Positions 23,928 through 26,309 of a DNA stretch of 39,988 nt are shown piece after piece. Under the pieces are notes generated by a model. The model was not told where the DNA came from. It saw nothing but the letters and a program-made list of their open reading frames with translations, and did no database searches. Origin of the DNA: Nocardioidaceae bacterium (lineage in GTDB: Bacteria; Actinomycetota; Actinomycetes; Propionibacteriales; Nocardioidaceae). Position numbers and translations under genes: made by a program. How positions within the stretch are numbered: the stretch's first letter is position 1; every line of letters begins with the position of its first letter. The stretch covers positions 1-39,988 of the forward strand of contig JAICXL010000015.1 in NCBI GenBank assembly GCA_025980475.1, in the 5' to 3' direction.

Positions 23928-24416
23928 ATGGAGCACGACGAGGTGGACCGGCTCGTCGAGGCGTGGCAGCGGGAGCGGGCCGACCTCGACCTGTCACCGG
24001 TGGAGGTCTTCAGCCGGATCGGCCGGCTCTCGCGCCACCTCGACCTGGCCCGGCGCTCGGCCTTCACCGCGCACGCCATCGAGCCGTGGGAGTTCGACGT
24101 GCTGGCGGCGCTGCGGCGGGCGGGCGAGCCCTACCAGCTGACGCCGGGGCGGCTGATCCGCGAGACGCTGGTGACCAGCGGCACGATGACCAACCGGGTC
24201 GACCGGCTCGCCGCCCGCGGGCTGGTGCAGCGGGCCCCCGATCCGGGCGACCGGCGCGGCGTGCTGGTCGGCCTGACCCCGGCCGGACGCAGCACCGTCG
24301 ACGCCGCGTTCGAGGAGTTGCTCAACCGCGAGCGCCTGCTGCTGGAGTCGCTGCCCGAGGGCGACCGCACCCGCCTCGCCGACCTGCTCAGGACGCTGAT
24401 GTCGCCCTTCCGCTGA
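23928..24416 (+). CDS. MarR-family regulator, probable TamR
   Basis: A 162-residue winged helix-turn-helix protein. It has an N-terminal extension (about 1-35), recognition region LIRETLVTSGTMTNRVDRLAARGLV (about 85-108) and wing PDPGDRRGVLVGLTPAG. Streptomyces coelicolor has a TamR regulator divergent from tam that responds to trans-aconitate and related acids; the same arrangement and operator occur here. The stop codon lies inside the repeat element that fills the gap to the ABC-F gene. Confidence 0.88.
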   Translation: MEHDEVDRLVEAWQRERADLDLSPVEVFSRIGRLSRHLDLARRSAFTAHAIEPWEFDVLAALRRAGEPYQLTPGRLIRETLVTSGTMTNRVDRLAARGLVQRAPDPGDRRGVLVGLTPAGRSTVDAAFEELLNRERLLLESLPEGDRTRLADLLRTLMSPFR

Positions 24417-24498
24417 CCGGTCACTTCTGGTGCGCCACAACCCGCCGACTGGTCAACTTCGGCGAGTCGCAACCGGCCGACCGGTCACTTTCGTTCAC
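24413..24498 (+). repeat. 32-bp-unit repeat element, copy between marR and the ABC-F gene
   Basis: Two full imperfect 32-base units (24413-24444, 24445-24476) and a partial third (24477-24498) follow each other. Each starts CYGACYGGTCA, containing the palindrome GACCGGTC, followed by a TTC-rich stretch and GCG. The element spans the whole gap between the convergent genes and supplies the stop codons of both. A second, inverted copy lies inside the ABC-F reading frame. Confidence 0.85.
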
Positions 24499-26309
24499 TC
24501 GACGAGCTCCGCGGCCGCGAGCCACTCCTGCTCGAGGGCGGCCTTCTCCGCGGCGAGCTCGCGCAGCTGCGTCGAGAGCCGGGCCAGGGCTTCGTGGTCA
24601 CCGCGGTTCCCGGCCATCTCGGCATTGAGCTGGGCCTCCCGTGCGCCGATCCGCTGGAGCTGCTTGTCCAGGCGGGCAATGGTCTTGCGCGCCGTACGCT
24701 CCTGCGAGCTGCCCGCCTTCGCCTTCGTCGTGCGCGAAATCTGACCGGTCGGTGCCTCTGCGCCCGCCGAAGTTGACCGGTCGACGGGTCCAGGCGCGCC
24801 AGAACTGACGCGTCGGCGGAGGTATTCGTCGACGCCACCCGGGAGCATCGACACCTGCCCTTCGCCCATCAACGCGCGGGTGGTGTCGGTGACCCGCTCG
24901 AGGAAGTAGCGGTCGTGGGAGACCACGACGAGGGTGCCGGGCCAGGAGTCGAGGAAGTCCTCGAGCACGGTCAGCGTCTCGATGTCCAGGTCGTTGGTCG
25001 GCTCGTCGAGGAGCAGCACGTTGGGCTCCGAGAGCAGCAGCCGCAGCAGCTGGAAACGCCGCCGCTCGCCGCCGGACAGGTCCGACAGCCGGGCGGTGAG
25101 CCGGTCCCCGGTGAAGCCGAACCGCTCCAGCAGCGACGACGCGGTCACCTCGCCGCCGCCGGCGGTGCGGGCCACTCGCCGGATACCCTCGACCGTGGAC
25201 AGCACCCGCGCGTCCGGGTCGTCACCGGGCACATCCAGCGCCGAGGGGTTCTGGGTGAGGTGCGCCAGCGCGACCGTGCGACCTCGCTTGACGCGGCCGG
25301 CGGTGGGTGCGATCTGCCCGGCCAGCAGCGTGAGCACCGAGGTCTTGCCGGCGCCGTTGACGCCCACGATCCCCACCCGCTCGCCGGGCGCCAGCCGCCA
25401 GGTGGCTCCGGAGAGCAGCTCCCGGTCGCCGCGCACCAGCGAGACGTCCTCGAGGTCGACGACGTCCTTGCCCAGCCGCTGGGTGGCGAAGCGCTCCAGC
25501 CGGACGCGGTCGCGGGGCGGCGGCTCGTCGGCGATCAGCGTGTTGGCGGCCTCGATGCGGAACTTCGGCTTCGCAGTGCGGGCCGGTGCGCCCCGCCGCA
25601 GCCAGGCGAGCTCCTTGCGCATCAGGTTCTGCCGTCGGGACTCGGAGGCGGCAGCCTGTCTGGCCCGCTCGGCCCTGGCCAGGACGAAGGCCGCGTAGCC
25701 GCCGTCGTAGACGTCGATGGTCCCGTCGTGGACCTCCCAGGTCGTCTCGCAGACCTCGTCGAGGAACCAGCGGTCGTGGGTGACGACCACGAGCGCGGAG
25801 CTGCGCCGCCGCAGGTGGCCCGCCAGCCAGGACACCGCCTCGACGTCGAGGTGGTTGGTCGGCTCGTCGAGCAGCAGCAGGTCGTCCGCCTCGAGCAGCA
25901 GTCGGGCCAGCGAGCAGCGCCGCCGCTCCCCGCCGGACAGCCCGTGCACGGCCCGGTCGAGGGCCACCCCGGCGAGCAGGACCTCGACAACCTCTCGCGT
26001 CGTCGGGTCGGCCGCCCACTCGTGGTCGGCCTTGCCGCCGAGCACCACCTGGCGCACGCTGTGGCTGTCGTCGAGCAGGTCACGCTGGTCCAGGTAGCCG
26101 ATCTGCAGCCCCCGGGCCCGCGAGATCCGGCCCGCGTCGGGCTCGGCGCGGCCGGCCATCAGGTTGAGCAGCGTGGTCTTGCCGTCGCCGTTGCGGCCCA
26201 CCACCCCGATGCGCTCGCCCTCGCCCACCCCGAGGCTGACCTCGTCGAGCAGCAGCCGGACGGTCCAGGACTTGGTGACCTTCTCGAGGTTGACCAGGTT
26301 GGTCGCCAT
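24495..26309 (-). CDS. ABC-F family ATPase, Uup-like
   Basis: A 604-residue protein with two nucleotide-binding domains and no membrane segments. The first has Walker A GRNGDGKT (38-45), signature LSGGERRR and LLLLDEPTNHLD. The second has GVNGAGKTS, LSGGERRRFQL and VLLLDEPTNDLD. A C-terminal charged coiled coil (about 530-604, RKTIARLDKQLQRIG onward) makes it Uup-like; ABC-F proteins act on ribosomes or DNA intermediates rather than transport. The ATG overlaps the ispE stop by one base. Residues about 498-526, between the second domain and the coiled coil, are encoded by an inserted repeat element. Confidence 0.92.
   Translation of the reverse strand: MATNLVNLEKVTKSWTVRLLLDEVSLGVGEGERIGVVGRNGDGKTTLLNLMAGRAEPDAGRISRARGLQIGYLDQRDLLDDSHSVRQVVLGGKADHEWAADPTTREVVEVLLAGVALDRAVHGLSGGERRRCSLARLLLEADDLLLLDEPTNHLDVEAVSWLAGHLRRRSSALVVVTHDRWFLDEVCETTWEVHDGTIDVYDGGYAAFVLARAERARQAAASESRRQNLMRKELAWLRRGAPARTAKPKFRIEAANTLIADEPPPRDRVRLERFATQRLGKDVVDLEDVSLVRGDRELLSGATWRLAPGERVGIVGVNGAGKTSVLTLLAGQIAPTAGRVKRGRTVALAHLTQNPSALDVPGDDPDARVLSTVEGIRRVARTAGGGEVTASSLLERFGFTGDRLTARLSDLSGGERRRFQLLRLLLSEPNVLLLDEPTNDLDIETLTVLEDFLDSWPGTLVVVSHDRYFLERVTDTTRALMGEGQVSMLPGGVDEYLRRRVSSGAPGPVDRSTSAGAEAPTGQISRTTKAKAGSSQERTARKTIARLDKQLQRIGAREAQLNAEMAGNRGDHEALARLSTQLRELAAEKAALEQEWLAAAELVE
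24730..24816 (-). repeat. 32-bp-unit repeat element, copy inside the ABC-F coding sequence
   Basis: Read on the minus strand this 87-base stretch aligns along its whole length with the copy at 24413-24498. It has the same two 32-base units and partial third, with only one extra base near the end. The block CGCCGAAGTTGACC is identical in both. Its length is a multiple of three, and it encodes a Ser/Gly/Pro/Ala-rich linker without disrupting the frame. Confidence 0.85.

Follow-up and report, generated by a model that had tools for sequence, protein, structure and literature searches.

Head-to-head arrays of oriented short units at gene ends in a Nocardioidaceae genome and some of its relatives

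A stretch of DNA of 39,988 nucleotides from a Nocardioidaceae bacterium (GCA_025980475.1, contig JAICXL010000015.1; the whole stretch is called the window here) holds two short elements in inverted orientation, one between two convergent genes and the other inside one of these genes. What kind of element is this, and does it occur elsewhere? The initial annotation described an inverted pair of about 87 bp, each member made of two 32-base units plus a partial third, and took it for a dispersed, possibly mobile, repeat family able to sit in coding DNA. Our mapping of the units (Table 1) agrees with the description of the pair, as do the arms at 24409-24464 and 24765-24820, which are 82% complementary across 56 bases. 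The core of each unit is an oriented word of 18 bases, GACCGGTCANYTTYGGCG, behind which come about 14 bases that are loosely conserved, and each half-array has two full units and a decayed third, the two halves standing head to head.

Table 1. Genes, half-arrays and unit cores of the locus, in window coordinates
Feature	Position	Strand	Remarks
MarR-family regulator gene	23928..24416	+	Pfam; stop codon common to first unit
Forward half-array	24412..24498	+	Three oriented units at 32-base spacing; fills the MarR/ABC-F gap
Forward unit 1 core	24415..24432	+	Initial GA belongs also to the MarR stop TGA (24414-24416)
Forward unit 2 core	24447..24464	+	
Forward unit 3 core	24479..24496	+	End decayed; overlaps the ABC-F stop codon (24495-24497)
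Reverse half-array	24730..24820	-	Three units; in the ABC-F linker before the C-terminal domain, read in sense and in frame
Reverse unit 3 core	24733..24750	-	Decayed
Reverse unit 2 core	24765..24782	-	
Reverse unit 1 core	24797..24814	-	Variant GACGCGTCA
ABC-F-type ATPase gene	24495..26309	-	Pfam: two ABC_tran domains and ABC_tran_Xtn; hosts the reverse half-array

The 78 bases between the two stop codons are the three-unit forward row, with the stops at units 1 and 3, so that one copy does form the entire convergent gap, as had been claimed. The reverse half encodes residues of about 498-525 of the ABC-F protein, the C-terminal domain of which has a Pfam match at residues 538-597 that falls under its cut-off. 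With up to three mismatches GACYGGTCAACTTCGGCG is found in the 40 kb window only at 24447 and 24765, and with four mismatches at three further places, including the unit at 24733. The only Rfam match in the window at gathering scores is a tRNA (17349-17427), the array being unmatched.

In the genome of origin (G000; 2.76 Mb in 114 contigs, 92.8% complete) the core was found at 17 places with up to two mismatches and the reversed pattern at none, and paired GACCGGTC words were found 24 times, with zero for the control; a chance origin is therefore rejected. The loci examined contain 20 arrays, of which 13 are two-sided, four forward only and three reverse only, and a position matrix applied to 19 array loci gave 86 units. 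A model built from 42 of the units returned 90 matches at E up to 10, the training units included, 74 of them below 0.1. The element is thus far from confined to two copies, and the idea of a dispersed family proved right for this genome and, as described below, for relatives as well. The arrays are real and non-random, and they are more structured than first described. These arrays also contain another version of the core, GAGGCGTCA, at 22 places with up to two mismatches (control 0), some of which were also counted under the first form; it stands beside GACCGGTCA at C49, C59, C90, C101 and C113, the two sometimes occupying opposite halves of one array. The genes beside the arrays serve ordinary metabolic and housekeeping functions, among them those for acetate kinase, phosphoketolase, pyruvate dehydrogenase E1 and RbpA, and in a subset of 20 array-adjacent proteins 19 match a Pfam family, two of them below the curated cut-off.

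The spacing of the units was measured at chosen loci of seven genomes. Up to 120 bases there are 234 spacings between units of one strand, and they take only the values 22, 31, 32, 42 and 63: 144 are 31 or 32 (52 in G000, 63 in G075, 16 in G196, three in G276 and 10 in G066), 88 are 22, and 42 and 63 occur once each, the lone 63 probably reflecting a missed unit. Single genomes are nearly uniform, with 31 or 32 in 52/53 cases in the genome of origin, 32 in 63/63 in G075, one 42 among 17 in G196, and 22 in 60/60 in G111 and 28/28 in G145, where no other spacing was seen. The spacings are discrete and near whole DNA helical turns, 22 bases slightly exceeding two turns. Where the strand switches within 600 bases, the units are head to head in 55 of 56 cases (binomial 1.6e-15).

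The direction of the units follows that of the genes, which were called with a home-made gene caller. Among 146 half-arrays (single-unit ones of less than 18 bits were dropped), 113 come after the 3' end of a gene on the same strand, 32 after a 5' end (113 versus 32, 8.5e-12) and one lies inside a gene. Of those after a 5' end, 21 face a partner at a 3' end, four face a partner elsewhere and seven are partnerless. The one half-array well inside a gene, among all 146 from the loci of the seven genomes, is the reverse half in the window, and a few others overlap gene 3' ends. The repeat can therefore sit in coding DNA, as was stated, although it hardly ever does so. (L123, with one weak hit inside a gene, was left out of the geometry, placement, likeness, folding and conservation counts.) Since the loci had been picked for holding matches, background gaps were taken from the array loci themselves: the 94 array-bearing gaps are convergent in 50 cases, codirectional in 36 and divergent in eight, versus 38, 206 and 61 for 305 array-free gaps (odds ratio for convergent gaps 8.0, p 5e-15). 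An overlap between the first unit and the stop codon is seen in 12/25 cases in the genome of origin, and the unit begins 6 bases past the stop in 12/36 cases in G111 and 10/21 in G145. Convergent gaps are short (median 16 bases in a G043 sample and 31 in one from G081), which accounts in part for the closeness to stop codons but not for the common exact offset.

How widely are the arrays distributed? A restriction to one species was suggested by the exact GACCGGTC pattern, the pair of which gives one or two matches each in 20 of the other 196 family genomes (the reversed pattern gives up to three); this was overturned by a looser core, which found arrays in relatives. The pattern GCYGASCGGKCANYTYYG has matches in 69 of 341 family genomes, 11 of them with five or more when both strands are summed, and its reversal has at most two per strand in the same 341 genomes. 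In a scan of 394 genomes of the class, matches outside the family never exceed one per genome, and the exact core gave single matches only, without arrays, in 27 genome contigs and three viral stretches, scans that may leave out the window's own genome. Profile R1, at E up to 1, matched all 58 genomes, the genome of origin included, and nine relatives' loci (L068-L076) had no array.

Some relatives within Nocardioidaceae have arrays of the same type with species-specific cores, the consensus being GACCGGGCA in G075 and GAGCGGTCA in G145 and in G111, the latter a member of the same family. Genomes of the same genus have 32-base arrays with GACCGGGCA or GAGCGGGCA once the core is allowed to vary. 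The array-bearing genomes are G000, G075, G066, G113, G111, G145, G276, G196 and G354; G081 and G084 are among the array-poor. Although GACCGGTC is palindromic in the genome of origin, both of these consensus cores from relatives are non-palindromic, and the general form of the site, GASCGGKCANYTYYG, is asymmetric. G081 has zero matches to the core pattern on either strand; at three mismatches, 200 kb samples of G043 and G081 gave one close pair each, and 19 loci of the genome of origin, picked for their matches, gave one to five pairs each. As some close relatives, such as G081, show no arrays, whatever function the arrays have must be dispensable. The relatives' loci are a chosen part of their matches, and within them 10 of the 15 G145 array loci are common to G111, where about 1.5 or fewer are expected. 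Array positions shared more distantly, across genera or between the genome of origin and G075, amount to three cases (G075/G145, G075/G276 and G000/G075), to which we give no weight because each is one overlap among 300-1000 candidate gaps (P 0.02-0.53).

Spacing near whole helical turns, together with a core that is non-palindromic across species, points to a directional site that a protein reads on DNA. We prefer, with a confidence slightly short of even, to regard the arrays as rows of oriented protein-binding sites at gene ends, with a putative binder and function; the two elements in the window are then the halves of one head-to-head site array, belonging to a family found at a minor fraction of the 3' ends of genes in some Nocardioidaceae. 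A sequence-specific protein would contact the sites on a single helical face and would cooperate along the row, and the row could act as a polar, two-sided boundary that stops or slows read-through as well as transcription from the opposite side. Cores that differ between species would reflect site and protein changing together, and the half within the ABC-F gene might be a row of sites that ended up in a linker able to tolerate it. We hold the complete scheme, in which helically spaced directional rows and a putative reader protein form a gene-end boundary system with punctuation on both sides and co-change of site and protein, more tentatively than the binding sites as such. Several observations count against binding sites. 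The first unit is so close to the stop that a block could stall RNA polymerase before it, about 20 places in 2.76 Mb are far from what a general terminator would require, 11 half-arrays after a 5' end have no 3'-end partner, and some close relatives show no arrays. The binding-site reading is nevertheless preferred to a mobile repeat or an RNA hairpin, from which it is not fully exclusive, and the original reading as a repeat family is partly supported, in the dispersal and in the one copy within coding DNA.

The strongest competitor, which we nonetheless consider rather unlikely, is a palindromic non-autonomous mobile or REP-like repeat with a head-to-head layout and defined ends, which survives in short convergent gaps where it does least harm and of which the single halves are decayed copies. 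The ABC-F gene is present in 22 of 23 other genomes of the genus, and none of the 21 other loci that reach the gene end, with about 1.5 kb of flank, has an array of this kind (L232 of G119 stops within the gene and is outside the 21). The array was therefore either gained in its own line or lost several times. MarR faces ABC-F in 14 of the 22 other loci, with stop-to-stop gaps of 7 bases in G066 and 10 bases in G004, both array-free, of 33 bases in L229 and of at least 131 in ten more, and with an overlap in L225; the empty loci and the two very short gaps suit a mobile element. A loose pair in one of the 22 loci (L220, hits 28 bases apart at 3194 and 3222) was dismissed as chance.

The copy inside coding DNA likewise favors mobility, and the initial annotation took it for an in-frame insertion in the ABC-F linker, to be checked by the absence of residues 498-526 from orthologs. 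It is in frame, and its sequence was not seen in orthologs, but it adds no extra length: between two fixed motifs the linker has 73 residues here and 61-85 in 18 of 21 orthologs (L223, L224 and L226 were unparsed). A clean insertion of 29 residues is thus unproven because linker length varies among orthologs; the reverse half is, judged from sequence, a unique segment in a tolerant linker. Other repeats were noticed at this locus. In L227 (G043) the MarR/ABC-F gap is filled by a tandem row of four copies of a repeat that is unrelated to the arrays, about 41 bases long and inverted at its end. The ABC-F linkers of some other species (L214, L215 and L220) contain VEPVET-like peptides, which, by eye, probably stem from a further dispersed repeat, GGTGGTCGAGC...GTCGAGACC, that is frequent in the gaps sampled in G043 (L234, L240 and L242). 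In L230 (G075) and L226 (G087) the gap has GGGCAGTTT/AAACTGCCC pieces in an inverted layout, with repeated GTCATACG words in L230 as well, and these pieces are perhaps decayed relatives of the arrays.

Mobility is further favored by the species-specific cores and copy numbers and by an outer GGCC flank that, by eye, precedes GAGCGG in several G145 arrays. Against it, half-arrays of different loci in the genome of origin are at best 0.83 identical over 50-60 bases (median 0.62), and the core is held while the tail has diverged, with mean top-base frequencies of 0.81-0.90 and 0.49-0.70, respectively, in four genomes. No RAYT (Y1 transposase) gene was found in 15 genomes at E up to 0.001, in a search limited to Y1_Tnp/RAYT in which 5/14 control genomes were positive. 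Unit direction tracks the gene, and the loci common to G145 and G111 also argue against movement. The suggestion of mobility thus has the empty ABC-F loci on its side and gene-tied direction, a kept core and the lack of RAYT against it, and mobility is not established.

Could the facing halves instead act as RNA, forming a long hairpin on read-through that, as in two-sided terminators or BIMEs, terminates the transcript or shields the 3' end of the mRNA? The position after stop codons would suit such a role, and all 45 two-sided clusters that were folded have z below -2 (40 shuffles each; genome means -6.1 to -10.2), although strong folding of this kind arises because any inverted repeat folds. 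Single halves, which make up 40 of the 85 clusters folded, fold weakly overall: 32 of them have no marked fold (z above -2) and eight are below -2, with genome means of -0.15 to -1.9. (Clusters of more than 420 bases or of one unit were left out, and halves more than 150 bases apart were counted as single.) In the genome of origin 5/9 single halves do fold below -2, which favors RNA and tells against the binding sites. With G-U allowed, the halves of an array do not pair better than permuted ones do in G000, G075 and G111 (p 0.86, 0.89 and 0.98). The halves in G145 are weakly more alike than permuted (p 0.015, or 0.018 with G-U allowed), as pairing predicts and contrary to the site model, so that hairpin co-variation is unsupported in three genomes of four and weakly supported in the last. 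A hairpin also needs no helical spacing. Intrinsic terminators consist of a GC hairpin with a T run behind it, and positions 24200-25000 gave one weak terminator-like match versus 0.4 in shuffles. We consider the RNA explanation improbable. Neutral tandem repeats produced at gene ends by slippage are very hard to credit. Within a half, neighboring units resemble each other more than units from different arrays do in G000 (0.70 v 0.60) and G075 (0.78 v 0.65), so local duplication happens, but they are no more alike in G111 (0.78 v 0.78) or G145 (0.73 v 0.76), and slippage does not give a single core that recurs at about twenty places and, in a related version, across genera, with fixed direction and a head-to-head layout.

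Known repeat systems resemble the arrays in part. REP, BIME and REPIN sequences with their RAYTs are short dispersed units, each a palindrome or stem-loop, that form inverted pairs, prefer convergent gaps and lie after stop codons. The arrays share intergenic location, inverted pairing, convergent preference and siting after stops; they differ in the non-palindromic consensus of the relatives examined, in fixed helical spacing and in that the 15 genomes searched gave no Y1_Tnp gene. The MIRUs of mycobacteria are long direct repeats in tandem, between codirectional genes or inside operons, which overlap stop codons. Our arrays are also tandem units in an actinobacterium that overlap stops, but with an 18-base core, spacings of 22 or 32, a head-to-head layout and convergent orientation in 50/94 gaps. 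Rickettsia palindromic elements are regularly inserted in frame within genes, and the reverse half in the window is likewise read in frame inside a protein, although only 1/146 half-arrays lies well inside a gene. The preferred model has its nearest parallel in the Sal box arrays of eukaryotic rRNA genes, where a row of directional 18-base sites behind the gene is bound by TTF-I, which stops the polymerase. The rows proposed here would be similarly directional, 18 bases per site, behind the gene and protein-read; the Sal box system is eukaryotic, and no homologous protein or site is implied.

Regular repeats also bring CRISPR to mind, in which near-identical repeats of 23-47 bases alternate with unique spacers of similar length. 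Unlike these, the arrays have 18-base cores that are degenerate, with tails of either 4 or 13-14 bases, and facing halves with a strand switch. For N. dokdonensis, ten putative CRISPR repeats from CRISPRFinder are reported, with no adjacent Cas proteins (PMC5526307). These putative repeats may include arrays of the present kind.

An earlier description of the arrays was not found in the open-access literature by sequence words or by topic, and they look like an unreported gene-end signal in some actinobacteria, at dozens of genes. Transcript ends in bacteria are mostly attributed to RNA hairpins or Rho. If the binding-site reading is true, a directional row of DNA read by a protein at gene ends would add another type of punctuation, and the change of core along with the change of spacing from 22 to 32 would offer a natural experiment in the joint change of a protein and dozens of its sites. 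Should this be a repeat family and no more, it is still linked to the direction of genes and to the helical phase of DNA. A single locus could not have revealed that unit direction tracks gene direction or that spacing tracks the helix. One minor observation concerns two gene ends, those of RbpA and of a 6-phosphogluconolactonase-type gene, which have half-arrays in both G000 and G075 (L128, 3060-4294; L156, 2390-3660); the two half-arrays face each other across a poorly known gene.
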